The notes under the pieces: generated by a model | Database searches by the model: none | What the model was told of the DNA's origin: nothing | The model's input: only the letters and a program-made list of their open reading frames with translations | Source: Persicaria tinctoria | Lineage: Eukaryota > Streptophyta > Magnoliopsida > Caryophyllales > Polygonaceae | Assembly: GCA_037127255.1 (NCBI GenBank) | Contig: JBANSL010000003.1 | Coordinates: 19,781,314 to 19,845,313, forward strand | Length of the DNA stretch: 64,000 bases | Reading direction: 5' to 3' | Shown here: one piece after another, positions 19,631-52,386 of the stretch | How the letters are laid out: each line of letters begins with the position of its first letter | How positions within the stretch are numbered: the first letter of the stretch is position 1 | Program-made: the position numbers and the translations under genes

Positions 19631-22600
19631 TGTAAAGGCTCGGATTTTTAAATCCTAATTTTTCGGAAAAAGAAAATAAACATGGATTTGAAAGTGGAAT
19701 TTAACGGAAAACTCGCTAACTCGGATTTTAAAAATTCATGGAACGAATTTCCGACCTAAAATAAAATTCTTGAAAACTAACTTTATATGGCGATATCTTC
19801 CTCGGATTTTTGAAAATCTAATTTGATCGAGTCGGGATTAGCGGGTTTCGAGATTTTGTTTCCGGGTAATTCAATTTGACTTTTGGGGACCATATAATTT
19901 TGTCCCCTTCCCCCTTCACGTGTCCAATTTTAACAATTTCCATCTTCCTCTCCCTGTCGACAGCAGCAACTGGGAATCTGGGATGGAAACAGCCTTCACC
20001 CTTCTCCAACACTTCATTCTATTCTTAAGTAAACTCTCCCACACTCACCTTCTCCCTCATGTGTTTGTTTCACCCAAAAATGGCAAAGCGCCAAACCCAA
20101 TCCTCACCCTCTCTGGTCAATTACAGCCAGCACTCCCCCTTTCCCTTCAAATTGGAATCCGGACAAGCTCACAGGAGAACCTCTCTCCCTCTCTCCCCTT
20201 TACTTCCTGCATAAAATCAGAAACACCCAGCAAAACCCACCAGAAGAACCCCCCCCCCCATCACCGATTCGCCATTCCCATCTCTTTCCTTCCGTTGAAC
20301 TGAGCTCCGAGCCACCTTTGGCCGTTCAATCCACCACCATCCCTGTTCGTTTGAAGCAACAACCACCGGCAGCCCTCCTTGCTCAGCCACCAGCGGCGCC
20401 GACAGCCACCACCGCAACTCTGTTCAGTTCTCCTTCCCCGAGGAGCAGCGGTAGCAGCTCCTTCTCCGTCTTCCACCAAGCCGCAGCAGCACTTAGACCT
20501 CGACGACGCCCAGGAGCAGGTGGATCCGAGTCGTCGAGCTCCATCCTCTCCCTCCTTCCTCCGCCCTGTCTTCCGATTCGTCGGCGGTAAGCTCCAATTT
20601 TCCCCTTCTCACGACCCAAATCTGTGTAAAGTCAGGCCTTTAACCGCTTTCCACTCTTCCTAGGCCAAGATCGAAGAGGTTCCGGCACCGGCGAGGCCGT
20701 TTCGAGCCCCGACAGGCGTTTTCCGGCGAATATCGCAAAGCCCTCGGTGAGATTCCTTCTCCTTCCTTCTTGCACTCGTTGAGTATTTCTGGGTGGGATG
20801 TTGTCGGTGAGGGATTCCGATCGGATTGCGGGTGGTCGGGTTGAGAAAGGATTCCGAGCAGCCTGGGATAGGTCGGATTGAAAACGGCCGCCGGCAAGGC
20901 CGGATTCCATCTTCTTCTTCTTTCTTCCGTCGTTCTTCCCGTCGTCCGTTCCAAGAGCTCTCTTCTGAGCTTGAAGAAGACAAAGCCTTCCTCTGCTTTT
21001 GGGCCTAATTTTTGGGCCTGACCCGGATCGGGAAAACGGGTTATATCATTTTCTAACCGGGTTTCAGAAATAGGAGGGGTTGGATCCGGATTTCTTTCGG
21101 GTTCTCTTGTGGGAATTGGATCCGGGTCTACTGGGTTTCCTTTCCTTTTTCTTCTCTGGGCCTGTTTCCTTCGTGTTGAGAGATCTCGGGCTTCAGGGTG
21201 GGCTCTCGGGTCTGGGCTATTCGGGTTGGGCTTTTTATTTTCATTTGATTTGGTTAATGGGTTGTTATTTCTAAATTGTGTTATATATTATGGTTATATG
21301 TTATGTTAATAATTAATCATTGTTAGTTTATTAGATTATTATTATATGTTATATTCTGATTTTTGTGATCATTATAAATATTAGGAATTTTAAAATGATT
21401 TATTGGTTGTGATTTATAAATATGATTTGTAAAGTGGATTTAATGTTGGTATTGTATTTTTTGACGATAAATTATCTAAAAGGGTTTTCAAGTTACCTGG
21501 ATTTATCTCTTAAAGGATTTGTGTTTGGAAGATCAAAATGTCGGAATTATTTCTCTAATATGATTTGAGAGATTGATTTTAAGGTTTAAATGTCTAATGT
21601 CGGGATTCTTTTTCTTGGTTTGATGATGTTGGTTTTAAAAAGGAAATTGGGAGGATGATTTTGGTTGATGTTGATCATATCGGAAGGGTTTTGGAAAATG
21701 GTTTTACCGTCGATTGGTTTAAGGATGTTGAGAACTTGAGTTTTGTGTGTGTAAATGTTGGTCTGGTAGCTTACAGAAATGGCTTGATGATAGGTGTGTG
21801 TTGCTTTTGGATTGCTTTGGACTTGCATTTGGGCCATTGCTTGTGTTATCTTGTTGTTCTGCATCTTCAGGTAAGTTCCCTAAGGGGCTTACTCAGGTTG
21901 GACATTCATGCCTGTTGTTGCATTTTATGTTAGGTGTTGCATATGCATAAAAGCATGCCATGTAGTATCCTGTTTAGGTTGCACTAATTGAATGAGCATC
22001 TGCTTACTTTATGCGTTTGAAACAGAACGGCCGTTATCTGTGATAGTCCTAGAGTCTTTGCTAGGGTCATAGGGTAGCCCAGCCTCATCGGGTACCCTGA
22101 GTCAATCAAGTCATGAACTTCCTTATATTATGAGATGCTTGCGGGCTTTATTGTGGAGCGGGTTAGGCATGCGTGCCGCCCGATTATGATGGAATGCATT
22201 CACGAGCTGGCCAGTCTCCGCCCTATCGGAAGGGGGTGGAGGTAGGAGAGGGATATGCCACTTGGCATTGTCTTGGGCCCTTTATAGTATTTTTACACAT
22301 TATTATGACTAGGAGCATGCTAGTGTGTTTGACTTTCGTATTGCATTAGAGCATCTTCATTAGGTATAACACATACTATGTGGCCTCAGCGAGGACTGCC
22401 GGTCCCGCATGAGTGGCTCGATCTGACTCCTTTCCCCGTTCTTTTTTTTAAGGTATTTTCTGCAGATCTTGTTTGCTCCTTGCTTCTGTGACGGGAAACC
22501 CTTTGGCGAATCGAAGAACCTAGCTAATATTATAACTTGGTAAAATGTTAATCACTTGCTTATGATTTGGTTTGACCTAACTTTGTCGTGGCATTTGTAT

Positions 22601-22828
22601 CCTAGTTTTGCTTCCGCTTTACTTTCGGTTGAATTGGATTTTGCGACATAGTCTTAGGACAGGTAAAGGGTACCCAATGGCCCTTCGAGGTTTTTAGGGT
22701 TTGAAATCCCTCTTTCTACTAATCTTAAATGAGTTTGAAACCTCGACCCGTACCTGGATTGCAAGATCCGAACAAGGGGTCTTATCCCTTGAAACGTAAC
22801 CCGGAAATCATAATTCTGGGCCGTTACA
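19631..22828 (+). repeat. Right LTR of outer element
   Basis: Starts TGTAAAGGCTCGG after the PPT and ends GGGCCGTTACA, followed by TSD TGCAA. 3198 bp; it is the uninterrupted copy and shows the pre-insertion GGGGA site near 19886. It lacks about 105 bp found in the left LTR (deletion point near 21380). Confidence 0.92.
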
Positions 22829-24662: not shown

Positions 24663-25279
24663 TATACAAAGTTTGTACATTAATATAAGTCCTCATTTGT
24701 AAGGAGAACTTGTCCATCCGAATCGTACACGTGATCGAGTATTAGCTAGCTACCCGTTTTTCCCCAACACACCCAACCCGATTCCCTTTTTAGTTGCTTT
24801 GTTAGTGTCATATACTCTGCCCTTCTAGTAGAAATAGTCACAATGTGTATCGATAGGCTTAATCGATGACATACTAAACCTCGCCAACATCTTTTCGAGG
24901 TAACCTTTCTGCGATAAGAATCTCGGTTCCTAGAGTTTCTCGAGTTGCTCCCAAATCATTCATCTCCAATTCAGCACTTAAAAATCATTCAGCTTCCAAA
25001 CGCCATACTTGTTCATTGTAGCTATCAACATATAGAACTACAACATATATATATCATCTCCGTGTAGGACAATATAGATGAAAGAATCATATATCTTCCA
25101 ACCGATGAAAAAATCATCTCCGTGTAGTACACACAGCAATCATATGAACTTCTGTTGTAGCCAAGGTCCATCACATAGATGGCAAATCTCTTGTACTGTA
25201 CCACTGCCTTGAAGACTACATAAGGAAAAAGTAGCACGGTTTCGGAGCTATAATGTAATTTAGACAACACTATATGGGA
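24663..25279 (-). other. 3' flank/UTR of UGT80 fragment A1
   Basis: From about 24985 to 25279 the sequence matches 29292-29523, the 3' flank of copy B (for example GGTCCATCACATAGATGGC in both). This shows that the duplication included the 3' untranslated region. 24663-24984 has no recognised feature. Confidence 0.6.
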
Positions 25280-25283
25280 GCCA

Positions 25284-25727
25284 GATGAAGCCTATGAGGA
25301 TGCAAGCAAACACAACACAAGGGCCAAATTTTGGTTGTTAAAGAGCCACGGCTGAGAGTCTCGAACGTCGTCTTTCAATGAGGGTCGAGGAATAGGCAGC
25401 GGCAGATCGAGGGGCAAGTAAGTGTTAATGGAACATATCAACTGCAGCAGTGACACAATCTTTGTTCTCTACTAGTTTCGCTATTTCCATTGCACGAGAT
25501 TTCATCTGAAAGCACCCGTTTTGGTTTGATCAGTTTTTGCTAACTGAAAACTTACATTGTATGGTATAATTTACCTCTGGCTGAAACATAAATCTTATAG
25601 CATTTGACAGGGCTTCAACACTAAGATGATCAATCGATATTGGTACGGGTCCAAGTCCTTTCTCATAAATCCTATCGCCCCACAAGAACTGGTCTCCGAC
25701 AAATGGCCGGGACTCAGTCATCGGACA
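25284..25727 (-). pseudogene. UGT80 fragment A1 (last two exons, B-like)
   Basis: The penultimate exon, 25727-25575, encodes VGDQFLWGDRIYEKGLGP and LSVEALSNAIRF, but the start reads CPMTESRP where copy B has CPTTIVP. The last exon starts at 25505 after TTTCAG; it reads about 26 codons (KSRAMEIAKLVEN...) and then meets TAA, where copy B continues. Both exons and the 3' flank resemble copy B rather than C. Upstream of the penultimate exon the sequence switches near 25760 to C-type 3' flank, so all earlier exons are missing. A non-functional remnant. Confidence 0.85.
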
Positions 25728-26062
25728 CTGCAATTCAAGATGAAGTTCAATTCAGGCTATATACACATCTATACTTTTGAAAAACAGAGATTCTTTTTCC
25801 AGGCTTAAGATGACTAGAGATATAAACAAGTATTTATGACATCAATCATATACACAAATTAATTGAAATGACTTTTTGTATTTCCTATCCCCAAACTAAT
25901 ACAGGAATGTTATATTCATATGTGCAGATATTGAAAGAGCCATTCTAGGCAAAACAATGAGAATCAAATACAGATATCTCAAACACAAGCAATTTACAAG
26001 AAGAAAATGAGGGCCAAAACCTGTGCATAGCAGTACAGCTCCATATGGGAGGTAGATGAAGC

Positions 26063-26677
26063 CTATGAACATGCAAGACAACACAAATTTCTAATTTTGG
26101 TAAAGAACCTCTGCAATGAGTCTGGATTATCGTATTTCAGTGAGGGCTGAACGGGCAGTGGCAGGTCGAGAGGTAAGTGCTGATGGAACACGTTAACCGC
26201 AGCAGTCACACCATCTTCGTTCTCTTTTAGTTTTGCTATTTCCATTGCTCGAGATTTCACCTGAAAGAAGTGCATTGAGTTGGAGATAAGTCCTCCTACA
26301 TTACTAGCAATGGTATGCAGTATACTCACTGTATCCAAAAACTATACAAGTAAAAAGATTCTATTTCGAAACAGAAAAACTATCAATTAGAAGTGATAAC
26401 TGAAGCCAAAGCCTACACATATTTTCATAGACTGAAAGATAAATCAGATCGAATGCATCCATTTTTCTTTCCTCGGTTCTGATAAGTTTTACTGATTTAA
26501 CACTCCTCGAGTTGCATGTATGTTGACTGTTGCCTGTCACTGAAAAATACAAAGTGGAATGTACCTCTGGCTGAAGCATAAATCTCATAGCATTTGACAG
26601 GGCTTTAACACTGAGCTGATAAATCGGTATCGGTTTGGGTCCAAGTCCTGTCTCATAAACCCTAGAAGCCCACAAGA
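26063..26677 (-). pseudogene. UGT80 fragment A2 (last exon plus part of penultimate, C-like)
   Basis: The last exon, 26260-26063, encodes 65 residues (from VKSRAMEIAK to LCCLACS) and matches copy C almost residue for residue. The penultimate exon survives from 26565 to about 26677 and then breaks inside a conserved codon run, where unrelated sequence begins. The 3' flank (25850-26060) matches the 3' flank of C but lacks the hAT MITE; the single CACAAATT at 25853-25860 is the empty site. Non-functional because the upstream gene is absent. Confidence 0.87.
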
Positions 26678-28869
26678 TATAGAGAAAAGGGTATGTTTCC
26701 GACTATTGGCAGAAGTTAACCAAAATAACCAATGTTTGAAATCTAATGACACCACCAAACTGCAAAACTTCAAATTCGGAAACACAAATTTAATACTCCA
26801 TTGTTTGTAAATCACAAGATATTGAGAAAAAAGGAAAGGAAAGAAAGATGGGAGGCTCAGACACGCACAAACGCAGTCATCACGGAGCAAACATAAGGTT
26901 TGATTATGTATGCTCACATTTGGATCTCATCCTTCAGTATCGAGAAACGATTTCTGTCATCACCGCCTCAAACCTATAAGCATCGCAACAAAACCGAATT
27001 TTCAAAGAGCTTTAAAACACCAAAAGAGACACCAACCGACGGGGAAGGGACGAGACGAGGAGAGGATGAACGCCCTTTTTTAGCTCCTTCAGTTCAAACC
27101 CTAGGTTTGGATTTATATCAAATAAGGAACTCTTATCTGGGCCATGGATGGTTCAAGCCCAAATGAGTCCCAGGCCCAATATGCGGGTTTACACTTTACA
27201 GTCTAATCACTTGATTTTGCAATATGTTGCAATATGGGCGTTTATTAGGGGTGTACAGAAAAAACCCGACACGACTTATACAACATGAAAACACGACAAC
27301 ACGATATGAAAAGCGGAGAAACTGAATGCACCACAAATCATGCACGTCCATTCCGACGTGCATGGTTGAAATGAATTAATTAATTTTTTTGGCGTGTTGA
27401 TTAATAGGGAATGCCCGCACGTTAGAATAGACGTGCACTTTTGATGGGAATCTGTTGTGTATCTAACACCCTACGAAAAAAAAAACGAAATCGAAAAGAC
27501 ACAACACAAAAATTACACGAACCAATAAAACACGATATTAAACGATTCGTGTTCGGATCGGGCATATCCCCTTGTCGGATACTCGACGTGAACCGTTTAA
27601 TTTTTTTTTTTAATATGGTAATCTGAGCATAGTTGAAATACAATATCTGACATAAAGAAATGTAAAAAGCAATTAGCCTAGTTGGTTAAGCGGGTGCTTT
27701 TAGGTCCTAATGTTTAGATTTTGATTCCCAATCATTGTCAAAAGTTTTTCACTATGATTGATGTTATACAATTTTAAATTTTAACATCACACACATAGAC
27801 ATCGATTTTTTTTATTTTGATTAACATCAGTTTGTAGGCGATGTTAAATGAAATATTTGTTTTCTTTTTGTCAGATTTGAATCCGTACCTCTTTGTTTGA
27901 CCACATCGCTCTATTAATTTGAGCTAATATGCTTTAAATTGTACTTATTATTTACTAATTCAACACTAATGCCAAAAGAAAACTCCAAACAAACTATGGT
28001 CTACCAATTCAACACTAATGCCAAAAGAAAGCTCCAAACAAACTATCCTCTTGCATAGCTTTAAAAGTAGCTACTGTATCTTCACATCTTTGAATATAAT
28101 AATCAGATCAAGTAAAATAGTTTCATAAGTCCAACACAACGATTTAGTTTCTACAAAGAATTTTGTCCATATAACAAAGTATTCATTTGAAGGAGATAAT
28201 ATTAGAAACAGAAATGCTCAAAACATAGAATAATAAATATACATATATAAAGACCAAAGTTGGTCCGTATCAGATCCAACCCGTCTAATCCGACCCAACA
28301 CCGTATCTCCCAAGTAATACAAAATGGAAAAAAGAAGCATCAAGCAAAATTCATCATTAGAAATGGAGGTAATTAGAAATGCACAGCAGGCTCAAACATA
28401 TGCATTAATTTTTTAATTCAAAATCAAATCCCAAAGATTTACACTAGAAGGAGAATGTACAATTCATGACATCATACCTCTCCAGACATTGTGTAGCTTG
28501 TTTGTTTATTAACAATCTCTGACATCAAGAAACAAAAATAGGTGAATACCACAATCCCTAGCAGAAACGAGACAATCGATCAACTCGACATGCTAAACCA
28601 ACAGGGTTAAAACTAACCGGTAAAGCTTCAATAAGAAAGGTAAGGTTATATTCAGACTCACACAATGCCAGCATTATAACAAGGATCAGGGCCAGTAAAA
28701 GCACGCACCTTTTATACTTTTCTTGGTGGATGAAAATCAGTAGCGCTACGCAACCAGAATCAATTTTATGACCTATTACAACCAACATGAAATTAGTGTG
28801 TGCCACATAAGAAGAAGTCACCCAACCACGGAGAAGCGGAAAATGCACAAGGTGGCTTGCTCCGAAATC
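26678..28869. other. Spacer between UGT80 remnants, no gene recognised
   Basis: Short frames occur (26900-27166 plus; 28558-28848 minus, hydrophobic) but none shows a family match or codon-level support. 27240-27600 holds dispersed ACACGAC/CACGATA words of the kind seen in degenerate plant DNA transposons; no TIRs were fixed. Confidence 0.45.
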
Positions 28870-29291
28870 ACTAAAGCCGAGGGAACTCGGAGGGCTTGGA
28901 ATTAGGAACTTGGTTGATGTTAATCTGGCCTTGGTCGCGAAGACCAGCTGGAGACTTGTTATGACCGATGATGGCTGTGGAGTTGATCAAGAAGAATATC
29001 AAGACATCTCATCTGCATTACAGCCTGGTCACGCAGTGCCAGAGCTCCTGAAGTAGAGATTGGACTGTACAGTTTCGACATATCTTTAGCGAGGCTAATG
29101 CCCTGCCAATCATCTTGCGCAGTTATCCTCATCGTTAACCTTAGGCGTACCCTCCTCGGCTCTCTCCCTGGTGGAGCGGGACCGTTACTGCTCGCGGACG
29201 CTCAAGGGATCACTAAGACCCGCCTATGCCCCTTACTACTGTCATACATTAATGTTTCGTTGCTAGTGTTTTGTTTACCCAAAAAAAAAAA
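28870..29291 (+). mobile_element. 5'-truncated LINE 3' end
   Basis: The plus strand carries a decayed RNase H-like C-terminus (GCGAGGCTAATGCCCTG and CATCTTGCGCAG, resembling an EANAL...HLAQL motif with a small deletion), then a short 3' UTR and an A-run at 29280-29290, beyond which the 3' flank of UGT80 copy B resumes. The 5' border is uncertain and no TSD was fixed. Confidence 0.45.
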
Positions 29292-31533
29292 GCTTCTAAA
29301 CGCCATACTTGTTCATTGTAATTATCAGCATATATCTACGTGCAGGACCATATAGATGAAAGAATCATTTATCTTCCAACCTGTCGTAGTATACACAACA
29401 ATCATACGAACTTCTGTTGTAACCAAGGTCCATCACATAGATGGCAAATCTCTTGTACCGTACCACTGCCTTGAAGACTACATAAGGAAAAAGTAGCACA
29501 GTTTAGGAGCTATAATGTAATTTAGGCAGCACTATATGGGAGCCAGATGAAGCCGATGAGGATGCAAGCCAACACAAGTGCCAAATTTTGGTAGTTAAAG
29601 AGCCACGGCTGAGAGTCTCGAACGTCGTCTTTAAATGAGGGTCGAGGAATAGGCAGTGGCAGATCGGGGGGTAAGTGCCGATGGAACATATCAACTGCAG
29701 CAGCAACACCATCTTCGTTCGCTATTAGTTTTGCTATTTCCATTGCTCGAGCTTTCACCTGAAAGCACCCGTTTTGGCTTGATCAGTTTTTGCTAACTCA
29801 AAACTCTCATTGTATGTATGTTAACCGTTGCCTGTCACTGAAAAAACATGAATAATTTACCTCTGGTTGAAGCATAAATCTTATAGCATTTGACAGGGCT
29901 TCAACACTAAGATGATCAATCGGTATTGGTACGGGTCCAAGTCCTTTCTCATAAATCCTATCGCCCCACAAGAACTGGTCTCCGACAAATGGTACTATAG
30001 TCGTAGGACACTGCAATTCAAGATGAAGTTCAATTCAGGCTATAAACACGAACATGTCGAAAAAGGTTCATTAAAGGAACATACCCCGGCCTTTAATCCG
30101 ATGGCTACAGTGCCAGGACCACCATGATGAACCTGCATTTGCAACAGCAAAAATTGCTCTATCAGCAATAAACCTAAGAGATGGCAACATTCACTAAATA
30201 GGGGATTAATGGTTCAAATTTTACAACATATTATTAACACAAGTAAAACTCACAACAGCATAGCATTGCGGAAAAAGCCAATCATGAGGGCAATCTTCTA
30301 CAAGGAATACGTTTTCAGGGACATCCGATACTGCAGGTCACCAAACCAATAAGTGACATAAGCAAGATAAATCAGAAAGCCAACAAGCCCGACTGGGGTT
30401 CCAACTGAACCAATTGGCAATAGATGGAGTAACCCATCTCAGAGTGAGATTCAAAAATATCCCAAGTCACATAACAGAAATCAAACGAGAAAGAGATACT
30501 TACATATACCAAGGTCTCCCCAGCCACGGTCAAGTATTCCCCGCTGTCCTGTTTTGTTCAGAGCTTCCATAATGATTCTTGTAGTTTCGCCGGGATTTTC
30601 AAGTGGCTGTACAAAAAAAAGCAGTGTAGTTATTAAACAGCATTAGTCAGGGGAAAGCTCGTAGTGAACCAAACAAACGCATAGAGGAGAGTATACCAAG
30701 CTTCCGAACCCTATATATATTGGTTCTGGCCCTTTCTTGATCCACTGAACAACCTCTTCTCGAGGTTGATACTTTGATCCAAGATTGAGGAAACAATAGC
30801 CAACGACATCAATTAAAGGACCCCAGTCTGCAAATTTTGATGTTACAGTTTATCCTCGATACTCTTACCTTTTGGCTTAGCAAGCACATGAGGGCTCCAC
30901 ATGTAACCTGTTGGGAAGCGAGATACTGAGTCATCATATGTGCTGAAGAATGCAATAGAAGCGAGCTTCAATTTTCTTTTCCTAAGGTCATTGATGTAGC
31001 TCCTTATGCTCCACCACATGGACAAATCCATAAGTTTAAACGAGAGCTGCATCATTTCAAATTTGGATATCATTGGACAAAGACGAATGACATGAAAGAG
31101 CAACAATGATGAGCTAGAGCTTACCCAATTGCTAGTACATTTTGGTACAAGTGCAAAATATTGACGAATTTCAAATGTTGGGCTGCCAATTTAAAAAGCA
31201 AGAGTTTGAACATCACATTGATGTACATTCTGTTTTAACATAGGACAGTTTATAGCACAGTTCAAGTGTGGAATTTTGAATATATGAACATTACCACGAC
31301 AGCAAAATGATTATTTGTTGATTACATAGTCTAACAATAAAGCTAACTCATAACACGGCGAGAAAGAAATACTCACGCCCATGGCGTAATGAAGAATATG
31401 TGAAGGGGTACACCAAGAGCTTCAGCAACATGGCCTTGCCCTGCAAGAAAAGAACTCACCAAAGAAGTTAAAGGAGACGTCGGAGAGATGTTTCTCACTG
31501 CATATCAATAAATAAAAGCAGGTACAGCACATC

Positions 31534-32506
31534 TGATGCGGGACCATCCAAGACACCTCCGGACAAACCTATACTTGGTGATGGATCTATGATCTGAGCT
31601 CGTGAGAATGATGTCATCCTCAAGAGGAAGAAGAAGAAAGCTCCACCATGGGAGAAAGTGCAAAGGTGGAAGCTTGACGTTCGTTCTGGGTTCGTTCATA
31701 TACATTTGACAGCTTTTCGACGTCTCAGTAAAATGAGTCGTACGGATTCAATATTAATCGGATTGGATCATGCCATACCTTGTCGGAACGAGGACGAAAA
31801 GATCTACAACTTTTCTGTTGAAGGTTTTTCCAGATTCAACCTAGAGCTTGGCCGAAAATCACATTCTTTGGGCTGTCGCTGTTTTAGACGGGATTTCTTA
31901 AGTGTTGGAACTTTCTTTTATTGCTATTCTTAGAGACCTTATTTACTTAAGTTATTTTAGGTAATTTAGGGGTTATTTTTAATTATTCTTTTAATTATTA
32001 TTTTCCATCTAAATCAGCCCTAGGGTTATAAGTAACGGCTGATTCCTCCACATTGTACTCAGACGTCTTTTCATGAATGAAATTCCTTTGTGTGAAACAC
32101 AATGAGAGAAAGTCGATCGATTCGTAGCGTTGCTCATCGATTGCAAATTGGTTATAGATCCTGCTTGGTTTGCTTTGAGTTCGTCAACCTCGCGAGAGCT
32201 TGGTGATCCAGGTAATCACAAGTCCCCTCCTTGTGCCTCCAAGTTGTCCGCTTGGTTGTGTAAGGTTGTAGAGGCGGGCTTTATAGTCGTTGGCGTTTGG
32301 TTCCTACCCTCTACGGAGGCCTGGGGTCTTCATCTCGTTCTATTTTAGTTCGAATCAACCAATCTATCGGTCTTTTCATTACTTTTGTCGAGTCTTCTAT
32401 TGTTGCGTTCGAGTCTTTGTTCTTGTTTCTTGAGTCTTTGCTTCCGTTCTTGTCTTTGAGTCTTGATTGTCGAAGATCGGGCCATCCTACGGCTAACCCC
32501 GTATCA
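31534..32506 (+). repeat. Plus-oriented LTR of palindromic element
   Basis: 973 bp, TGATGCGGG to CCCCGTATCA with short inverted ends, followed directly by the PBS. Differs by a few substitutions from the inverted partner (for example TGATCTGAGC here, which makes a stop, versus CCGAGC in the partner on the matching strand). Confidence 0.85.
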
Positions 32507-33846
32507 AATTGGTATCAGAGCTTTGGTTTCCGACATCAAAGTTGTGTCTTTTGTTATTCCCTAAACACAAAACCTACAAAAAAAAATAGAGTCTTTCTTG
32601 TTCTTGATTTTTACTTCTTAAATTTTTTTAATTTGATTGCATTAACCTTTGTTTGTGATTGTTGTGGTTGCTCTAGCCCTAAACAAATCATAAGCCGAGA
32701 CCACAATAGCCTTGTGTGATTGCCGACTCGCCGTTCATGTGCTTTAGCCGATGTACACCATAGTTTGAAAGAAAGTCATAGGTGGCAACTTTCATTCCAA
32801 GCCAAGCAATTAGCACTAATATTGTTGTTGGAGCCAATTAACAAATTGAAGCCAATTAGCCACATTCTTGTTTTGTGCAGCTGATCAAAGTGGTTGAAAG
32901 TGGAATTCCTGTCGGCAGTCTTCAACCCAACCACAAGAGGTTTCCAAACCCTAGTCTGCTTTCTATCTTTGGCTATCTTGTTCCATCTTTGTTTATCTAT
33001 TTTATTGCCTTATTAAATTTTGATTTTTGATAGATTAAATCACTTTTATCTATCATAGATTATAAAAAGGCCTTAGATAGATATACCTTCCATATTTAGC
33101 CAAACCATCACCTATATATATTTCATAGGGCTACATATTTTATTTTTCTTTCACCATAGTTTAAATTTTCAAGAGTCATTTTATTTCATAGATAGTTTCT
33201 TGCATTAGTAAAAAAAAAAAGTGTCCGAAAAATTAAAAAAAAAATACATTCAAAGCTTTGACCTAGGAGGATAAAATTCACTAAGGGCAAAAGTAAGCTT
33301 TCAAAAAAAAAAAAAGGATTGTTGAGATCTAGTGCAAGAACTTTCAAGGACCAATTTTGGTGAAATCCTATAGCCCTAGTGGAAAGTCTCAAACACATAT
33401 CTCCCAAACCATAATTTTTTTTTAAGCCCTACCTTGCAACTACAACATCCAAACTAAGGGTTTAAATCAAAAAGAGGTAAAAATCCAAGTTTTTCTTTCT
33501 TTTCCTTCATTTTCTTTTCCTATTTTTGTGTGTCGTGTACTGCAGTGTCCATACCGACCCCCTCCATCCTCGGTACAGCCTCGGTACAGTGTCTGTCGAG
33601 TCAATTTGGCCGTTTCCGAGCTTCAGCCCAACTTGTGTCGAGCATTTTCTTCAGTGTTTCTTTGTCCTTTCTCTTGATTACTCTCTTTTGATTACTAAAT
33701 CTTTCCTTGAGTGTTGATTTGCCCAAAGCGGATTGCCCCAACAAGCTTGTCATACCAATTAGAGAGACGAGTGAGAGCGAAACACTTGTGAGATTGTTTA
33801 TATTTTTACTAACTGTCACATAGTTCTTTGTTTCTCTTTATTTGAC

Positions 33847-34112
33847 ATGTTTAACCAGGGCAACAACATGATTACGCGAGCCGAGATGATCAAACAGTTG
33901 GAAGCCGTGAATGAGACATTGGTACGGATAAATGACAGATTGACGGCAGTAGAGGCACGACATTCTTCTGGGGCATCTACTGGCCCTAAGGGGAGTAATC
34001 CTAACTCTTCTCCTCTTAACCCTTTGTACGTTCCTTGCTTTATATGTCAAGGTAGAGGACATGTTATGAAGGATTGCCCAAATAAGAAGACTTTCATGAT
34101 TAATCACCTAGG
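33847..34112 (+). CDS. Gag fragment with CCHC zinc knuckle
   Basis: The frame opens at 33847 (MFNQGNNMITRAEMIKQLEA...), shows a predicted coiled-coil-like segment (MIKQLEAVNETLVRINDRL), and carries one CX2CX4HX4C knuckle, CFICQGRGHVMKDC, about residues 64-77. This is the nucleocapsid part of a retrotransposon Gag. Beyond 34112 the frame continues to 34269 only by reading the inverted PBS/leader arm in antisense, so the tail is not Gag. Protease and pol are absent. Confidence 0.7.
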
Positions 34113-34373
34113 CAAACTATGGTGTACATCGGCTAAAGCACATGAACGGCGAGTCGGCAATCACACAAGGCTACTGTGGTCTCGGCTTATGATTTGTTTA
34201 GGGCTAGAGCAACCACAACAATCACAAACAAAGGTTAATGCAATCAAATTAAAAAAATTTAAGAAGTAAAAATCAAGAACAAGAAAGACTCTATTTTTTT
34301 TTGTAGGTTTTGTGTTTAGGGAATAACAAAAGACACAACTTTGATGTCGGAAATCAAAACTCTGATACCAATT

Positions 34374-35341
34374 TGATACGGGGTTAGCCGTAGGATGGCC
34401 CGATCTTCGACAATCAAGACTCAAAGACAAGAACGGAAGCAAAGACTCAAGAAACAAGAACAAAGACTCAAACGCAGCAATAGAAGACTTGACAAAAGTA
34501 ATGAAAAGACCGATAGATTGGTTGATTCGAACTAAAATAGAACGAGATGAAGACCCCAGACCTCCGTAGAGGGTAGGAACCAAACACCAATGACTATAAA
34601 ACCCGCCTCTACAACCTTACACAACCAAGCGGACAACTTGGAGGCACAAGGAGGGGACTTGTGATTACCTGGATCACCAAGCTCTCGCGAGGTTGACGAA
34701 CTCAAAGCAAACCAAGCAGGATCTATAACCAATTTGCAATCGATGAGCAACACTACGAATCGATCGACTTTCTCTCATTGTGTTTCACACAAAGGAATTT
34801 CATTCATGAAAAGACGTCTGAGTACAATGGAGGAATCAGCCGTTACTTATAACCCTAGGGCTGATTTAGATGGAAAATAATAATTAAAAGAATAATTAAA
34901 AATAACCCCTAAATTACCTAAAATAACTTAAGTAAATAAGGTCTCTAAGAATAGCAATAAAAGAAAGTTCCAACACTTAAGAAATCCCGTCTAAAACAGT
35001 GACAGCCCAAAGAATGTGATTTTCGGCCAAGCTCTAGGTTGAATCTGGAAAAACCTTCAACAGCAAAGTTGTAGATCTTTTCGTCCTCGTTCCGACAAGG
35101 TATGGCATGATCCAATCCGATTAATATTAAATCCATTCGACTCATTTTACTGAGACGTCGAAAAGCTGTCAAATGTATATGAACGAACCCAGAACGAACG
35201 TCAAGCTTCCACCTTTGCACTTTCTCCCATGGTGGAGCCTTCTTCATCCTCTTGAGGATGACATCATTCTCACGAGCTCGGATCATAGGTCCATCACCAA
35301 GTATAGGTTTGTCCGGAGGTGTCTTGGATGGTCCCGCATCA
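34374..35341 (-). repeat. Inverted LTR of palindromic element
   Basis: Reverse complement of 31534-32506, 968 bp. On the minus strand it holds a 138-codon frame (35361-34945) that begins just outside the element; no family assigned, though PMIRARENDVI faintly recalls the end of some gypsy Pol proteins. Confidence 0.85.
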
Positions 35342-35464
35342 ACATCCTTGTTTTTTTTCACTTACCCCAGGCTGAAGGATTAGCAATAATTGATTGAGCT
35401 CTAAAAGCTGTACTAGTCTCTATATCTGGTTCCGTACAGGCAGGCAAAACGGACTCAATTACGA

Positions 35465-36454
35465 TGTAATGATATGTGTTTACTTTCCTAAGTTTTCCTT
35501 TTGGCATGTAATATTGTTTATATGTTTGCTTGGACATGTATGTGTGTATGATGTTTATACAGGTATATTATAGTATATATTATACATATATGTTGCACTA
35601 TAGTTATACGTCTCGACTGAGTCGTATTGAGCCTTTTATAGGCTTGATCCTCTAACGAGACTATACTATAGCGGGGTTTAACATATATATGTATAAAACT
35701 ATACTATATGCATATATCATGTATAAGGTATTATAAGGGAAGAAGTAAACTTACCTGGTATTGGGCTTTAGCCCATTACTCGGCCCATAGATCCTGAAGC
35801 TCGGATGAGCTGGTAGTCCAGAGACTCGGAGCCCGCTCAACCCTACCTCCTTAAGTTGAAGCTCTGCGTTTTGAGGTTGGGAGCTTGACCTAGCTATAAA
35901 GCGTCTCTTCTTGTCCGAGGAGCAACACACTTCAGCTGCTCTCTTCTCTCTCCTCACAAACGCTCTCTTTTGCGCCGATTAGGGTTTCTTGGGTTTGGAG
36001 CTTTCTCTCCTTCTCTTGCCTTTGGTTCTTGAGCGCTCGGAGAAGAAAGGTTGCTGGTGGCTTCTCTGGAAGGTGGATCGAGCTCCGGCGTCCTCCTGGG
36101 TGGCCGCTCTCCTCGTCTTCTGAGATCTAGGGTTCTAGAGATCGATTTCTCTATCGATCTTCTGGTTTTATCCCATACAGGGGGATTTCTTCTTCTTCCT
36201 TGTACCTCTGATTCACATGCATGTTAGATTAGGGTTGCTTGCTTTCATTGCTTGTATCATCCCCTGTACGAACTCTCTTATAGTGGATTCGGCCAACTCT
36301 TGAGGCCCCGTGGACATAGGTATTATACCGAACCACGTAAAACTGCTTGAGTGTTCGATTGCTTGTGATTCTTCGTTTGATCTTTCGTTATCACTTTAGA
36401 TCTATTACGCTTCCGCTATCCAAAACCGATTTCTAGACGATTCTAGGTTTTACA
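35465..36454 (+). repeat. Left LTR of Tork copia element
   Basis: 990 bp, TGTAATG...TTTTACA. Includes a repetitive TATATATGTATA region and a CT-rich stretch with GCTCTCTTTTGCGCC that resembles a 5' leader. Confidence 0.92.
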
Positions 36455-36768
36455 ACGTGGTATCAGAGCTTGGCTGTCGCGTTCTTGATTTCTTGGCTCA
36501 TTGTTGAGTTCTAGGGATAGGGAACGGGTGTAGGGCCTCGGGCTGACCTAAAAGGCGACATCGCTGGTGCAGCACCCCCCCTACACGACGTACCACACCC
36601 TTGTTTGCTAGATCTAGGGCTTATGTGCTTTGATCTTGTGTTTTTGTGCTTCTGATCTTCGAGCTTTCTTGTTTTGCACTTGGCTTGATAGGATCTTTAG
36701 TTGCACTGTTAGATTCATATTTTCTTGAATCGTTTTTGTGCTCTTTAAATCATTTACTAACTGTTTAG

Positions 36769-39700
36769 TTGTTCTACAGGTACAATACAGCAGCTATGGG
36801 TGATAAAGGCACTTATCTTAAGCCTTTCAATGGCCACACTGACTTTGCTATGTGGCAATTGAAGATGAAGGCTATTCTGATCAAGGAAAAGTGTTGGGTT
36901 GTTGTAACCAACAAATTTCCAGAAGGGACTTCAAAGGAAAAAATCTTTGAAACTGATCAACAAGCTCACATTGAAGTGATGCTTCGCTTGAGCGATGAAG
37001 TTGCTAGACAGGTATTAAATTTTGACACAGCTGATAAGCTTTGGGAAGGTCTTGAAGGTTTGTACTTGGTAAAATCTCTCCCTTCCCGTGTTAATTTGTT
37101 TAATAAGCTGTTTAATTTCAAGATGGATGTTTCCTGTCCCTTGTCTGATAATCTTGATAAATTTCTGACTATTCTTCAAGATTTGCAAAGATGTGGTGAT
37201 AAAGTTGAGGAAACTCAGCAATGTGTTTTGTTGTTAAATTCTTTGCCTGCTCAATTTGATATTTTTAAAGATGTTGTGCAATACAGTACTGATAAATTGG
37301 AAAAGAAAGTTATTCTTGAATCCATTATTCAGAAAAATGATGCTTTAAAGGTCTTTAAAAACAAGTATGAGCTTAAAAATGACCATAAACCTGACAATAA
37401 GAATGAGGTTCTTGTTGCTAGAGGTAGGTTTAAGGGCAATAAGAATAATAACAACAATAACAACAATAAACCACCTCAAAAGGATTCCAGTAAAACTGAA
37501 AATCATCAAAATGGTAAACCTGATAAATCTCACCTTATGTGTTCTTACTGTTCTAAATCCGGTCACATTGAGAAACACTGCTTTAAGAGGAAGAAAGATG
37601 AAAGGCTTGCTGGTAAAAAGCCTAATGTCTCTGTTGTGCTTGAATCTCATCCTTCCTATACTCATGAAGTGCTTGCTTTGTTAAATTCCGGTGACTCCAA
37701 TGCTTGGATTTTAGATTCTGGATGTACTATGCATGCTACTTTCCATAAGTCTTGGTTTTCTGACCTTAAATGCTATGATGTTGGTACTGTCATGCTAGGT
37801 GATCATTCTGTGCTTAAAATAAAAGGTGTTGGTTCTGTTGCTTTAAGAATGTTTGACAATGTTGTTAGAGTTATAAAAGATGTTAAATGGGTGCCTGATT
37901 TGAGAAGAAACTTATTGTGTGAAAGTGCTCTTGAGGAATTAAAATATGATGTGTACAGTTCTGATGGTGTGAGGATTGTTACTAAGGATAGTAAACCTGT
38001 TATTAAATGCTTAAGAAAAGCTGGTTTATATGAACTGATTGCTACTCCTATTGTGAATTCCTCTGCGACTGCTTTTAATTCCATTGATATGCCTATGTCT
38101 ATGCATGATTCTATGTTATGGCATGTTAGGTTAGGTCATATTGGTAATAAAGGCCTTGAGAACTTGTATAAGTCTGGTGTTATTCCTGCTAAACCTTGTT
38201 CCATTGAATTATGTGAAAACTGTGTTCTAGGTAAGCATACTAGAAAAAGTTTCAAATCATCTACATTTGTTTCAACGGCTCCTTTGGATTATATTCATTC
38301 TGATCTATGGGGCCCTGCCCAAATATCTACTGTTGGTTTGAAAAGATATTTCATGTCCTTGATTGACCATTATAGTAGAAAAGTTTGGGTGTTTTTGTTG
38401 AAAACTAAAGATGAAGCTTTTGAAACTTTTAAACATTGGAAATCTATGGTTGAAAAGGAAACTGGCTTATTTGTTAAGTGCTTAAAAACTGACAATGGCC
38501 TTGAGTTTTGTAATTCCTTGTTTGATGTTTATTGTAAACAAAATGGCATTAAAAGACACTTTACAATTCCTGGAACTCCCCAGCAAAATGGTACTGCTGA
38601 AAGGATGAACATGACTCTTCTTGAAAAGGCTAGATGCATGCTAATTTCCTCTGGTTTAAAGCATTCTTTGTGGGGTGAAGCTGTTATGACTGCTGCATAT
38701 TTGATAAATAGAACCCCTTCCTCTGTGATTGATTTTAAGACTCCCTATGAACTGTGGTATAAAGGAAAACCTCACCTTGATCATTTTAAACCTTTTGGTT
38801 GTACTGTATATTCATACATTAACCAAGGCAAGTTGAATCCCAGATCACAAAAGTGTGTCCTATTGGGATATCCTCAAGGTGTTAAAGGTTATAAATTGTT
38901 ACTTGTTCAACCTGGAGCTTATAAAACTATTGTGAGTAGGAATGTTATTTTTAATGAGAATGAGTTTCATTTTAAAATGACTTCTGTTCCTACTATACAT
39001 GATACTAACTTGCAGGAACACAATGATGATCAGTTCTATGTTCCTAAGAACATTGAAACTGACTATGATGATGAGTTTGATACTGGTTATTCTCCCTCCC
39101 CTCCTCGTACTCTCTCTTCTGTTTCTACCCCTTCTGATTCTGTGGTTATGCAACCTCACCAATTGGGTGGGGAAGCTAATGAACCTATTATTGAACCTGT
39201 TGTTTTACCTTCCTCTTCAGTTTCTCCTATTTCTGTGGATGAGGATATTATTGTTGAGTTTGTGCCTGCTTCTGGTTCTGGTTCCTCTAGTTCTTCAGTT
39301 GCTGAAAGACATGATCTCACTGATTGGCAGTTGACTAGGGATAGGAGCCCTAGGTCTGTCATTCCAAATAAAAGGTTCATAAGTAACATTGTTGAGTTTG
39401 CTTGCCTGGTTTCTGATGTGGTTAAATCATTTACTCCTGAAACTTATGAACATGCTTTAAAGTGTGCTCACTATAAGAATTGGAAAAGGGCTATGGATGA
39501 AGAGATTGAGTCTATGAGGGTTAACCAAACCTGGACTTTAGTTGCTAAACCTAAAAATGCAAGACTTATTGATTGCAAATGGATTTTTAAACTAAAAGAT
39601 GGTGTGTCTAAATCTGATCCACCTAGATATAAAGCCAGACTTGTTGCTAAAGGCTTCACCCAAAGAGAGGGTGAAGACTATAATGAAATCTTTGCTCATG

Positions 39701-41009
39701 TGGTTAAGTATAAGACTCTTAGACTCTTACTTGCTATGACTGTTGTGCATGATTTTGAACTTGAGCAAATGGATGTTAAAACTGCTTTCTTGCATGGTGA
39801 TTTGGATGAGACTATATACATGAGACAGCTTAAGGGCTTTTTGATTCTGTGCATCCTAACTATGCTTGCCTGCTGAATAAATCTATCTATGGCCTTAAAC
39901 AGTCTCCTAGACAATGGAACATTAAGTTTGATAGATGTATGAGATTCAGTTTAGGGTTTAAGAGAAGTAAGTTTGATACATGCTTGTATTTTAAAGGTGT
40001 TAAAAGACATGGTCCTGCTGCTTATGTGCTTTTATATGTTGATGATATTCTTTTGATTTCTAAATCTAAAGATTGCATCTTAGATATTAAAAAGAACTTG
40101 CAGAAGCATTTTGACATGAAAGATTTGGGTGTTGCTAAGAAAATTTTAGGAATGTCCATTCTTAGAGATAGAAAGCATAAGAAATTATGGTTGCATCAAT
40201 GTGATTACATTCATAAGGTGCTTGATAGATTTCATATTTCTGGTGACAAAGTGAATAACATTCCTTTAGGTCCTCATCTTGATTTGACTAAGTCTAAAGA
40301 TGTATTGTCTGCTATTGAGATGAAAAATATGAAGTCTATACCATATGATGCTGCTGTTGGGTCTGTTATGTACTCTATGATCTGTACTAGGCCTGATCTG
40401 GCATTTGCTATCAGTACTTTAAGTAGATTCATGTCTAATCCTTCTGAGAAGCACTGGTTATCCATGAAATACTTGTTGAAATACTTGCTTGGCTCTGTTA
40501 ATCTGTCATTATTGTATTCTGAGCATATTTCTGCATCTGAATTACATGGCTTTGTTGATGCTGACTATGCTAGTAACAAGGACACTAGGAAATCTATTAC
40601 TTCCTATGTTTATTCATGGGCAGGTAATTGTATTTCCTGGAAGTCCCAACAACAGCCTATAGTTGCATTATCTTCCACTGAAGCTGAATACATTGCAGCA
40701 ACAGAGGCCTGTAAAGAGGCTATCTGGCTGCAGGGTATTTTGAAAGAAGTGGAGTTGAAGCATTATACATCTGTGCTGCATATAGATAGCCAAAGTGCTC
40801 TATATTTGTGTAGAGATCCCATGTACCATGAGCGTACTAAACATATTGATGTGAGATACCATTTCATTCGTGAAAAAGTTGAAGATAACATCATTCATGT
40901 TAAGAAAATTGATGGTAGACTTAATCCTGCAGATTTTGGCACTAAAATTGTCCCTCGTGATAAATTTGTGTTTTGCAGGAACTTCCACCACTTGGAGGAA
41001 CTTGAGTGA
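36769..41009 (+). pseudogene. Copia (Tork) Gag-Pol polyprotein, single frameshift
   Basis: Two frames, 36769-39876 (likely start is the second ATG, 36796, MGDKGTYLKPF) and 39849-41009, form one polyprotein broken by a 1-base loss near 39835-39850. Domains: UBN2-type Gag (about 15-210); zinc knuckle CSYCSKSGHIEKHC (about 258-271); aspartic protease WILDSGCTMH (about 312); pre-integrase HHCC with WHVRLGH and CENCVLGK; integrase with HSDLWGP, KTDNGLEF and AERMN carrying the D, D and E; RT starting near residue 920 with QMDVKTAFLHG; in the second frame YVDDILL and RNase H motifs (DADYAS, STEAEY, HIDSQSA). FAHVV replaces the usual FSPVV before the first RT Asp. Without the lost base it cannot make full-length Pol. 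Confidence 0.92.
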
Positions 41010-41121
41010 TCTCTGTGTGTGATGTATGCTTGGGCTGAGGACGGACCTGGCCATGAAGAATCCACTTACATGTTGAGTCTGAGTCTGCCCAGTGCAAGAC
41101 TTAGAAAAGTAGAGGGGTGTT

Positions 41122-42129
41122 TGTAATGATATGTGTTTACTTTCCTAAGTTTTCCTTTTGGCATGTAATATTTTTTATATGTTTGCTTGGACATGTATGT
41201 GTGTATGATGTTTATACAGGTATATTATAGTATATATTATACATATATGTTGCACTATAGTTATACGTCTCGACTGAGTCGTATTGAGCCTTTTATAGGC
41301 TTGATCTTCTAACGAGACTATACTATAGCGGGGTTTAACATATATATGTATAAAACTATACTATATGCATATATCATGTATAAGGTATTATGCATATATC
41401 ATATATTATAAGGGAAGAAGTAAACTTACCTGGTATTGGGCTTTAGCCCATTACTCGGCCCATGGATCCTGAAGCTCGGATGAGCTGGTAGCCCAGAGAC
41501 TCGGAGCCCGCTCAACCCTACCTCCTTAAGTTGAAGCTCTGCGTTTTGAGGTTGGGCGCTTGACCTAGCTATAAAGCGTCGCTTCTTGTCCGAGGAGCAA
41601 CACACTTCAGCTGCTCTCTTCTCTCTCCTCACAAACGCTCTCTTTTGCGCCGATTAGGATTTCTAGGGTTTTGAGCTTTCTCTCCTTCTCTTGCCTTTGG
41701 TTCTTGAGCGCTCGGAGAAGAAAGGTTGCTGGTGGCTTCTCTGGAAGGTGGATCGAGCTCCGGCGTCCTCCTGGGTGGCCGCTCTCCTCGTTTTATGAGA
41801 TCTAGGGCTCTAGAGATCGATTTCTCTATCGATCTTCTGGTTTTATCCCATACAGGGGGATTTCTTCTTCTTCCTTGTACCTCTGATTCACATGCATGTT
41901 AGATTAGGGTTGCTTGCTTTCATTGCTTGTATCATCCCTTGTACGAACTCTCTTATAGTGGATTCGGCCAACTCTTGAGGTCCCGTGGACATAGGTATTA
42001 TACCGAACCACGTAAAACTGCTTGAGTGTTCGATTGCTTGTGATTCTTCGTTTGATCTTTCGTTATCACTTTAGATCTATTACGCTTCCGCTATCCAAAA
42101 CCGATTTCTAGACGATTCTAGGTTTTACA
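41122..42129 (+). repeat. Right LTR of Tork copia element
   Basis: 1008 bp; differs from the left LTR by a handful of substitutions and a short duplication (GCATATATCATATATTAT near 41390). Confidence 0.92.
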
Positions 42130-43387
42130 ACCTTAAATTGGTTACTTACAGTTGTTATAGCTTCAAGTGAAGATAGAGAAAGTTTACTGTTCTTCAGCAT
42201 ACCTGATAGCAGCGATGCAGGGATCAAAGACATTATCTCTTTAATACATTATAACACAAACAATAACGAGGTAAAAGTATTTTATTCAGGAAACCAGCCT
42301 TTGATAATCATTTTCTTTTCCAACCAACCCAACTGATGCCAAAATAAAACAATCAAGCAGAAATTAAGGCATTGCAACATTGAGATTTGAGGCTTCTTAC
42401 AACTTGCTAGAATCTTAGGGCGAAGTCTCTAAAGTAAACATGGGTAGCCAATCTCACACGATGACCGTGTTCCTGCTCGTCCAAAAAAGCCTAGTCACTG
42501 TCATTTATCAAACTACAAGTCTGCAAATGTTTAACATGAACATATGCTACATTAGCAGCACAGTTGAGGCTTATATGAAGGCCATTTTAGTCCTTACACC
42601 CGACACTTTGTCCTAAACTTTATAATCTTTTGTTGGGGGGAGGGGGAATTTGCAACCCATGAGAATAATCAAAGAAAACATTTATAAATAACAAAAATAG
42701 CAGCCCAGCGAATCTCGCAATAAAGCAGGGTCCGAGGGGTCAAGATCCAACCACTATCTATAAATGAAACTTGAAAAGGAAAAGGAAGCACATATTAGTA
42801 AGTTCTATTTACGCTTTAAGACATACCTGCAACCTCTTTGCCAAGGCTATAAATGGCTGTACATCTCCTCTTGTGCCGACCACAAGAATTGCAATGCTTA
42901 GCCTAGGAATAGATTTTTTAAGATCCACCGGGACGTCCCCAGTGGTTACTCGTGGACTCTCAATTGCTTGAAAGTTCAACAGGTCCGTTGTTGCATAGCA
43001 AGAATTTAATGAGTTAAATGTTAGATACAATAAAGTTTAGTAGTAATAGAAAAAGATCTAAAATAGTATTGTTAGGTTGAATGTGTGCAAAGACTCTATT
43101 CAATAAAGTTTACAAGTTCAGTTTATGTTTTCAAGTGAGCATAATATCTTCTGTTCTTGGCGATTCAAGATGGAAAGATGAACTTGATCAAAATCATTCT
43201 CTTTACATCCCAATCAAGAAGCAAGCAACTACTCGCATACCTCTATCGGGTGAATAACTGGAGTTCTCCCCATCTGGCAGTGGCACTATACTGCTCGATG
43301 CAGATTGATCATCTACAACAGATGATTCGTTTTGAAGCTGGTTTCTCCCATTGAATGGCTCTTCCAAGAACTCGTCTTTGGCCATTC

Positions 43388-44343: not shown

Positions 44344-44348
44344 TCCAG

Positions 44349-44707
44349 TAATACAAAGACCAATGTTGGTCGACAAAGAAGCAAAGAGAGTTGCCAGCTC
44401 AGCAAGCCTAAGTGAAGCTCAGCCAAGCAATCAAGACCGTTCACCCTTGTTCACTATGGATGATCATGATTTTGGTTAAGTTGTACCAGATTAGTTGTTA
44501 GTTTAATTTTCTGTTATGAACAGCTTATAAATGAGATTAATATCTCATAACCTTGCTGTATCAAGTTTTCTGAGGTAATTGGAGAATAAAGTCATCGCCA
44601 TTGATGGTCCAAAATCAAGCTTGTCATTTACAGTTTTCTTCTTCAATTTCACACCTCAATTCCTTCTTCTTCCTCAATCAAATTCATCAATTCTACTAGC
44701 TGTAACA
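44349..44707 (+). repeat. Left LTR of Ale element
   Basis: 359 bp, ending TGTAACA directly before the PBS. The terminal TA is shared by both LTRs, so it predates insertion. Confidence 0.88.
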
Positions 44708-46099
44708 TGGTATCAGAGCTATGAGTAATCCAAGTGAAGATTCTCGTGATTCTCCGTCGAATGGAGAAATTGACAGCCTCAGAATCTATTCCAACAATCC
44801 TATGTTTCTGCATCATTCGGATCACCCGAATTACGTTCTATCTACGCAGTTGTTGACAGATCGGAACTACTATCCATGGAGGAAGTCGGTGGAAGTTTAT
44901 CTCCGTGCGAAGAACAAAATCGCCTTCGTCACTGGCAAATGTAAGCAACCACCAGATGACTCACCTCTTCTCTATCAATGGGAGAGGTGTTATAGCATGG
45001 TGATCTCCTGGCTTACACACTCCATGGACAAAGAAATTGCCGAATCTCTGCTGTATTTTGATTCCGCTCAGAGCATATGGCTTGATCTTCAGATGAGGTA
45101 TGCGTTTCCGAATTTTACTCGGATCTTTCAAGTCCAGAAGGAACTTTTTACTCTAAACCAAGGAAATCTTGCAATTAGCACATATTTTACTAAATTCAAA
45201 AAACTTTGGGATGAGTTTGTTGTGCTAATTGAGATCGAGAACTGTGGAGCCTGTGGTGCTGCTAGTCTGTTCCCTAAGTTCTTGCTCAAGCTGCAGGTTA
45301 TTCAATTCCTAGTTGGATTGAATGAATCTTACAACATGGTGCGTGCTAACATGTTGATGACGAAGCCAATGCCGACCATTGCTGATGTCTATCGGATGTG
45401 CTTGGATGAGGAAAAGAAAAGGGAGTTGCGGTCATCTCCAAGTGTGGGAATTGATTCCACCGCACTGAATTCATTTCAGAAAGGATCCACTTCCAATTCT
45501 CAAGGAAGCAAGAATGGAAGTTATGGAAGCTCTTCTTCACAGCAATGGAACAACAATACATCCAAGAATGGTGGAAACTCTGTGCCTAACTCCAACAATC
45601 AGTCTACTGGGAATTCGAATGGCAAGAAATCAAGGTATTTCTGTGATTTTTGCAAAAGAGAGGGGCACAGTATGGAAAGATGCTTCAAACTTCATGGCTA
45701 TCCTAAAGGGGATAAGGACAAGCCACAGCAGAAGAGTTATGCCAACAACTCTTCGTCTGATGTGGCCAGTGGTGGTGATAGAGAAGCTGGGGACCAGCCA
45801 CCTGCTTTTACAAAAGAGCAATACAGCCAACTGATAGCATTGCTCAGTTGTCAGTCTGTGAATGACCATGCCAATGCTTCAGGAATGATGGCAGGTAAGG
45901 TTCTTTGTTTTCTTATTAATGGTCAAGATCATCGGTGGATTATTGACAGTGGTGCTACTCACTACATTACCCCTACCTTGTCATTGTTTCAATCCTTTGC
46001 CAAAGCTCCACCAAATTCCTTTATTACTAAACCTGAAAAATCCCAGTCTCCCATTGATCATATTGGCTCAATTAAGTTGAGCAATGATATTACCCTGAC

Positions 46100-46713: not shown

Positions 46714-46965
46714 ACCCTGACTGGTGTCTTACATGTTCCCACCTTTGCCTATAATTTTTTTTTTTTAAAGGTAAATATATTGCTTAAATTTAAATATGTA
46801 CATAAGGGGTTTGATCGGACCATAGGCTACAACCGAGGCTAGCTCTATTGTAGCCTTTAAAGTTAGTAAGGCTCACATCCTAATTTGACCATAAGGGTGT
46901 GGGACAATGTCCATGTGTGGTTCCTATCTCTTCAAGCCTCGGCTATCAGAAGTCGGACACACACC

Positions 46966-47033
46966 TCAAAAGTGTTAAGGTGAGACCTCCCCTTCGGCTT
47001 GGCCATCAAGGAGGTTCCACCCTAACACTTTGA
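46966..47033 (-). other. Hairpin in LINE 3' UTR
   Basis: Inverted repeat arms 46966-46990 and 47010-47033 (about 24 bp, three or so mismatches or bulges) with a 19-nt loop. It lies about 200 bp upstream of the A-tail; such 3' structures serve as RT recognition in some LINE families, but that role is inference here. Confidence 0.65.
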
Positions 47034-50634: not shown

Positions 50635-50636
50635 TA

Positions 50637-52295: not shown

Positions 52296-52386
52296 TGTCC
52301 TACATGTGAGACTTGTACTGGTAGCCCATGGACCTTGGAGAGGTGTGGATGTGTTGGTGGGTTAGGTCTCTTTCCTTTTATATGCT

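Follow-up and report, generated by a model that had tools for sequence, protein, structure and literature searches.

Foldback and terminal-inverted-repeat (TIR) DNA transposons carry long terminal inverted repeats. LARD and TR-GAG elements, which have direct long terminal repeats (LTRs), are defined by partial or no coding capacity. Elements of the DIRS group are not known to have either a target site duplication (TSD) or a transfer RNA (tRNA) primer binding site (PBS). For DIRS-1, the available part of PMC5633606 describes inverted LTRs and a tyrosine recombinase that acts on circular intermediates. Template switching has been described in the plant element Tnt1 (PMC2923131, as far as its available part goes), and complexes that arose by template switching among LTR elements of the Triticeae, rice and maize, with 5-bp TSDs and a single integration event, are the subject of Sabot and Schulman 2007 (PMC1950507, available part). 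A plant LTR element combining inverted LTRs with a TSD was not found among the titles and abstract openings listed by searches of the open literature, subscription papers lying outside that search. The locus considered here, at positions 31534–35341 of a 64,000-nt stretch of Persicaria tinctoria (Polygonaceae) DNA, has this combination. The stretch, hereafter the window, corresponds to positions 19,781,314–19,845,313 of the forward strand of contig JBANSL010000003.1 (C3:19781314-19845313) in the 1.68-Gb assembly GCA_037127255.1. The insertion very probably stems from a palindromic complementary DNA (cDNA) that was formed before the integration of a non-autonomous LTR retrotransposon from a large family. 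This reading draws on inverted ends that abut a TSD, a paralogue without the element, relatives with direct LTRs, an inner joint found once, and a second element with U3 at both ends.

The anatomy of the insertion was established by self-comparison, BLAST within the window and Pfam, and relatives were obtained from whole-assembly sequence searches in which 40 candidates were scored per query (of 7,980 for the arm, 4,546 for the centre, 1,209 for the joint, and 2,088 for the joint of the second element, L059). The region 31534–35341 is a single insertion composed of two inverted 1.23-kb arms (31534–32767 and 34113–35341; 98% identical) and a 1,345-nt centre (32768–34112). Each arm reads LTR, 3-nt spacer, PBS, leader. 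On the plus strand, the left LTR (31534–32506; 973 nt; TGATGCGGG...CCCCGTATCA, ends that are the same or nearly so in relatives) has U3 outermost and is followed by the PBS and 5′ leader segment present in both arms (32507–32767), with an exact PBS, TGGTATCAGAGC, at 32510–32521. On the minus strand, the inverted PBS and leader copy (34113–34373) holds a PBS with one mismatch (34359–34370) and leads into an inverted LTR of 968 nt (34374–35341), likewise with U3 outermost. A perfect 5-bp TSD, ACATC, lies directly outside both arms (31529–31533 and 35342–35346). Self-comparison and BLAST thus bear out the inverted LTRs, the outer U3 ends and the perfect TSD that the original prediction had read from the letters, and both PBS positions that it gave are correct. 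Its 973-bp LTR repeat holds for the left LTR; the repeated unit is longer, since each arm adds 261 nt of PBS and leader, and the right LTR is shorter. The PBS, which we take to be complementary to initiator-methionine tRNA, has five matches in the window with at most one mismatch (three of them in other elements) against 0.15 expected, and beyond the two arms themselves BLAST detected no copy of them in the window.

The centre contains the remaining 5′ leader and the start of gag on the plus strand, and is single copy in the window except for a 36-nt match at 7622. A shortened 80-aa gag frame (33868–34107, plus strand) carries a CCHC zinc knuckle at residues 56–72 (PF00098, E=1.7e-5), which corroborates the predicted single-copy centre with a gag zinc knuckle; zinc knuckles were the only Pfam domain returned for this frame, the one frame scanned. 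Searches for homologues of the gag piece returned no match, no pol was seen in the element, and neither Rfam nor a scan of viral contigs for the U5-PBS motif yielded anything useful. A purine tract, AGAAAGGGGGAA, stands before an LTR in six fetched loci, but this presumptive polypurine tract (PPT) has no match with at most two mismatches in 31534–35341, where the right LTR borders on PBS and leader on its inner side.

The TG...CA ends (TGATGCGGG/CCCGCATCA) together with the 5-bp TSD are those of an LTR retrotransposon (TG...CA, 4–6-bp TSD), and a PBS adjoins the LTR once in each arm; the two direct LTRs of a complete LTR retrotransposon are replaced by inverted ones. A Foldback or TIR DNA transposon was rejected as an identity because the arms, although long terminal inverted repeats, consist of LTR, PBS and leader. 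A DIRS element was rejected on account of the TSD ACATC and the tRNA-type PBS. As a retroelement bounded by inverted LTRs the insertion resembles DIRS-1 as depicted in the available part of PMC5633606, but it shows tRNA-type PBSs in its arms, has relatives with direct LTRs, and bears a TSD that points to integrase. With the Sabot and Schulman complexes, as characterized in the available part of PMC1950507, it shares an origin in abnormal reverse transcription products, a single integration, near-identical outer LTRs and a TSD. Those complexes, in contrast, have a third, internal LTR between two cores and, in the model for them, ordinary outer ends, and they are described without inversion; the window element lacks both the third internal LTR and the two full cores.

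The arm query returned 43 matches in the genome, the best other copies being 90–91% identical, and among the matches listed no two within 10 kb of each other are oppositely oriented except the window's own arms. Twenty regions were taken from the assembly, and 17 full LTR pairs could be measured in 16 of them (no full pair was obtained for L033, L038, L042 and L048). The direct-LTR relatives that the original prediction had proposed to search for are there: all 17 pairs are direct, with element lengths of 3,920–5,315 nt, LTR identities of 92.8–100% and a perfect 5-bp TSD in 12. The five without one comprise three adjacent pairs in multi-LTR arrays (L031, and L034 twice), L041 and L050. Homology of LTR, leader and gag to direct-LTR copies with a 5-bp TSD places the window element in this family of the genome. 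With sizes of 3.9–5.3 kb, LTRs of ~1 kb, a PBS, a purine tract, mostly a 5-bp TSD and a gag remnant, the relatives may be LARD- or TR-GAG-like; the window element differs from those classes in its inverted LTRs. Inverted repeats of at least 100 nt were absent from 10 of the 12 regions searched among the 20 fetched. In the other two, L033 has 83–84% pairs involving an inverted LTR fragment that is 75% identical, and L035 has a 177-nt inverted pair outside the element. Among the candidates scored, the best matches of the centre elsewhere are 85–92% identical over part of its length. The segment 33848–34112 is continuous in L032, L033, L037, L039, L040 and L044, and L035, L036, L041 and L042 have ~0.75–1.1 kb extra at the gag gap; since the internal gag deletion is common to several relatives, the missing gag middle is separate from the palindrome event. 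In one run that was read, L034 (C7:23324500-23334499), family units recur at a near-constant spacing of ~3.17 kb in what looks like a tandem LTR-internal-LTR array, and near-constant spacings of ~3.34 kb (C1:41241420-41254810) and 2.95–3.03 kb (C1:42122391-42134292) resemble such arrays.

The insertion lies inside a minus-strand gene copy, exon pieces of which are found at ~31.4 kb and ~35.4 kb. A second copy of the gene (57.6–62.9 kb) aligns to both flanks, 31299–31446 with 60606–60748 and 35356–35461 with 60824–60929, and this paralogous segment (60606–60929) has no element between the aligned flanks, although ~40–60 nt there are poorly conserved, so that the empty site can be placed only approximately. 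Long palindromes can come from chimeric reads, and an assembly or read artefact would account for inverted arms as such. It is nevertheless extremely improbable here: the flanks are not mirrored and are collinear with the paralogue on both sides, which argues against a palindromic read, a TSD is present, and the arms differ at 19 sites and by two indels. The location in a gene intron, another point of the original prediction, agrees with GT...AG intron ends seen by eye; however, a Copia element (LTRs 35465–36456 and 41122–42131; Pfam domains found) also splits the neighbouring exon of the host gene copy, which is therefore probably dead. The gene is presumably sterol-glucosyltransferase (UGT80)-like, a label left unconfirmed by Pfam, PDB and NCBIfam searches with the exon pieces, in which one PDB match (E=0.058) was to an unrelated deacylase.

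At the inner end of the right arm, gag (CACCTAGG-CAAA) joins the reversed 5′ leader through the 4-nt microhomology CAAA (joint 34105–34120, plus strand; CAAA at 34113–34116), so that the element reads ...CACCTAGGCAAACTATGG across the joint. Relatives show what the two sides of the joint may have looked like in the parent. In L012 and L025 gag continues ...AATCACCTAGGCAAAAATGGATC (type 1; compare ...CACCTAGGCAAAAATGG), and in L018, L022, L024 and L028, as well as in L020 with one change, it continues ...CACCTAGGCGAAAAT (type 2, ...CGAAAAT...); the reversed leader reads ...GACTTTCTTTCAAACTATGG (also given as ...TTTCAAACTATGG). Type-1 gag overlaps the leader in CAAA, whereas type 2 would overlap in C alone. 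Of the 40 genomic matches to a 116-nt joint query, one is full-length and is the window locus, one lies on the leader side and is the element's own left arm (query 54–114, starting at CAAA), and 38 lie on the gag side. In 32 of these 38 the match stops right at query position 57, where CAAA ends, so gag is followed by this tetranucleotide in dozens of copies across the genome. Just before the joint, gag resembles the reversed leader over a longer stretch, but this similarity is weak (74 of 2,000 random pairs were as good) and was dropped once the relatives had resolved the joint.

The exact U5-PBS pattern occurs at 2,295 sites in the genome (1,095 + 1,200), and among the first 100 of the sites listed there are two convergent PBS pairs less than 6 kb apart. 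One of them belongs to L059 (C1:41227100-41233100), which again has U3 at both outer ends, with the TSD ATCTA/ATCTA directly outside. Its left LTR (107–1238) is followed by leader, gag parts, a purine-rich tract, a middle LTR (3428 to ~4537), a PBS that runs to 4552 and an inverted arm of leader, PBS and LTR (4552–5911). The LTR is ~75% identical to that of the window element, which makes L059 a member of another subfamily. Behind the middle LTR stands exactly the 12-nt PBS (AAATTGGTATCAGAGC), from which the sequence jumps to the reversed leader ACAAAGGG..., and the L059 joint query found 70 matches, of which one is full-length (L059 itself) and 69 are one-sided. The inverted segment begins in the leader in both elements, 261 nt past the LTR in the window and 228 nt past it in L059, and the L059 outer arms differ at 18 of 1,360 positions. 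The other convergent U5-PBS pair, 5.4 kb apart (C1:42144623-42150032; 42144623+/42150008-), is a candidate third inverted element.

An ordinary element exposes U3 at one outer end and U5 at the other. Two outer U3 ends and a TSD in both cases indicate that the integrating molecule was most likely already palindromic, and the account of the original prediction, a palindromic cDNA accepted by integrase, is supported by the TSD, by U3 at both outer ends, by the gene paralogue that lacks the insertion, by the 4 nt of microhomology and by the missing PPT. The same arrangement could be sought in a direct-LTR insertion that was rearranged later, by an inversion or by a neighbouring inverted insertion followed by a deletion, and dense and even tandem family copies would provide material for it. 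That history is very improbable: the breakpoint of an inversion would need to fall precisely on the outermost LTR base beside the TSD, two insertions would differ in their TSDs (chance identity over 5 bp, ~1/1,000, would be needed, and the TSDs match in both cases), and U3 occupies both outer ends. Autointegration was set aside by reasoning alone, as it gives circles and not two free U3 ends.

As to how the palindromic cDNA was made, plus-strand template switching is on balance the probable route. Plus-strand DNA (U3-R-U5-PBS-leader-gag) would have been extended to the end of the gag zinc-knuckle region, where its 3′ end ...GGCAAA could base-pair over 4 nt with plus-sense 5′ leader DNA belonging to this cDNA or to a sibling. 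Extension on this leader DNA back to the U3 end would yield a linear product that has U3 at either end and its two LTRs inverted, and integrase would join both of these ends to the gene intron with a normal 5-bp TSD. In L059, plus-sense DNA would have reached not gag but the end of the PBS, where the inverted leader takes over. The simplest common account of both cases is accordingly one in which the 3′ end of a plus strand primes anew on leader DNA of plus sense and is extended along it as far as the U3 end. What we infer here is polymerase switching over end joining, the template molecule, the use of integrase and the non-autonomy of the parent. According to the available part of PMC3187697, template switching takes place during DNA-templated synthesis too, and plus-strand pieces can move between molecules; retroviral switching in that source is between repeats or co-packaged genomes, whereas the switch proposed for the window uses same-sense DNA over 4 nt and results in an inversion. 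The stop of L059 at the PBS end might, if the 12-nt length that we assume for it is right, be the analogue of plus-strand strong-stop DNA, whose pathway appears in the available part of PMC3187697.

Several observations weigh against this route. Some relatives carry CGAA and not CAAA at the joint position, and the arm and centre searches contain, among the 40 candidates scored in each, no copy above 92% identity besides the element itself, so that the parental joint sequence has to be deduced from relatives. The joint overlap of L059 amounts to 1 nt only. The middle LTR of L059 differs from the outer two at 47–49 of ~1,095 positions plus 53–55 gap columns. One template used in a single cycle would not be expected to give this, and it suggests that L059 arose from two co-packaged RNAs or underwent later conversion between its outer arms. 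Moreover, the microhomology also suits a fusion of two separate cDNA fragments with breaks in gag and in the leader, respectively; host end joining would have linked them head to head prior to integration, for which integrase would have used their two U3 ends. This would give the same product, overlaps of 4 nt and 1 nt are in keeping with it, and the unlike middle LTR of L059 fits two molecules. End joining, the main rival, is nonetheless rather unlikely: one side of L059 breaks exactly at the end of the PBS, a natural DNA end and not a random break, and the other break falls in the same part of the leader in both elements.

The existence of a second U3/U3 element would be in line with a replicating palindromic family, a very improbable reading given that the L059 joint differs, that each joint is full-length once among the candidates scored, and that there is neither a PPT nor, by deduction, a sense R at the 3′ end of the transcript. 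The element should not be able to replicate: whichever LTR it comes from, a transcript would terminate in complementary and not in identical R, so that normal first-strand transfer should fail. As a self-sustaining type, the distinct non-autonomous architecture envisaged in the original prediction thus finds no backing, the joint being full-length here alone among the 40 candidates scored and R being presumably complementary in the transcript. The palindrome looks like a recurrent by-product, neither a lineage nor a unique accident. Tentatively, the 5′ leader may be a hot spot for same-sense plus-strand switching that regularly produces U3/U3 palindromic cDNAs, and tens of these may be present in the genome, integrated with normal TSDs. 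Each would be an inverted repeat of a single generation from which double-stranded RNA directed at the family itself could be made. This proposal is built on two cases, the second being one of the two convergent pairs among the first 100 sites. A hairpin RNA of ~1.2 kb could, judging by the arms, be transcribed from the window element. LTR finders look for direct repeats, and U3/U3 copies would therefore tend to be missed; convergent PBS pairs flanked by a TSD would offer a simple genome-wide assay for counting such failures. If the reading is correct, the element provides natural germ-line evidence for integrase accepting a cDNA with two identical U3 ends and records where plus-strand synthesis went wrong, and long inverted LTR repeats of this kind become candidate natural sources of family-specific small interfering RNA.

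Over 1,234 columns the arms differ by the 19 substitutions, 16 of which are transitions, and by the two indels of 3 and 2 nt. Compared with 41 projected relative copies (some places fetched twice), 11 changes look derived in the right arm and eight in the left, and with 28 copies the derived state at three of the 19 sites is seen in at least four relatives, where random changes of these kinds would give 1.75 such sites (P=0.25). The changes thus look private, which favours arms that were identical at insertion, although two near-identical templates would also fit. With plant substitution rates, the arm divergence of 1.55% translates into 0.6–1.1 million years, or more if arm-to-arm conversion acted; in three neighbouring elements the two LTRs are ~1.4–2.5% apart (substitutions only).

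Elsewhere in the window, the minus-strand gene copies span 25100–31460 and 57600–62900, the first being accompanied by partial duplications at 25.1–26.7 kb and broken by the Copia element. The latter (35465–42131) has no obvious matching TSD by eye (...TTACGA / ACCTTA...). Direct repeats of ~3 kb at 11288–14322 and 19885–22828, which are 98–99% alike and have a PBS at 14327, probably delimit a large LTR element, and a further Copia element at 44348–57471 contains a minus-strand unit resembling a long interspersed nuclear element, with reverse transcriptase and endonuclease domains.

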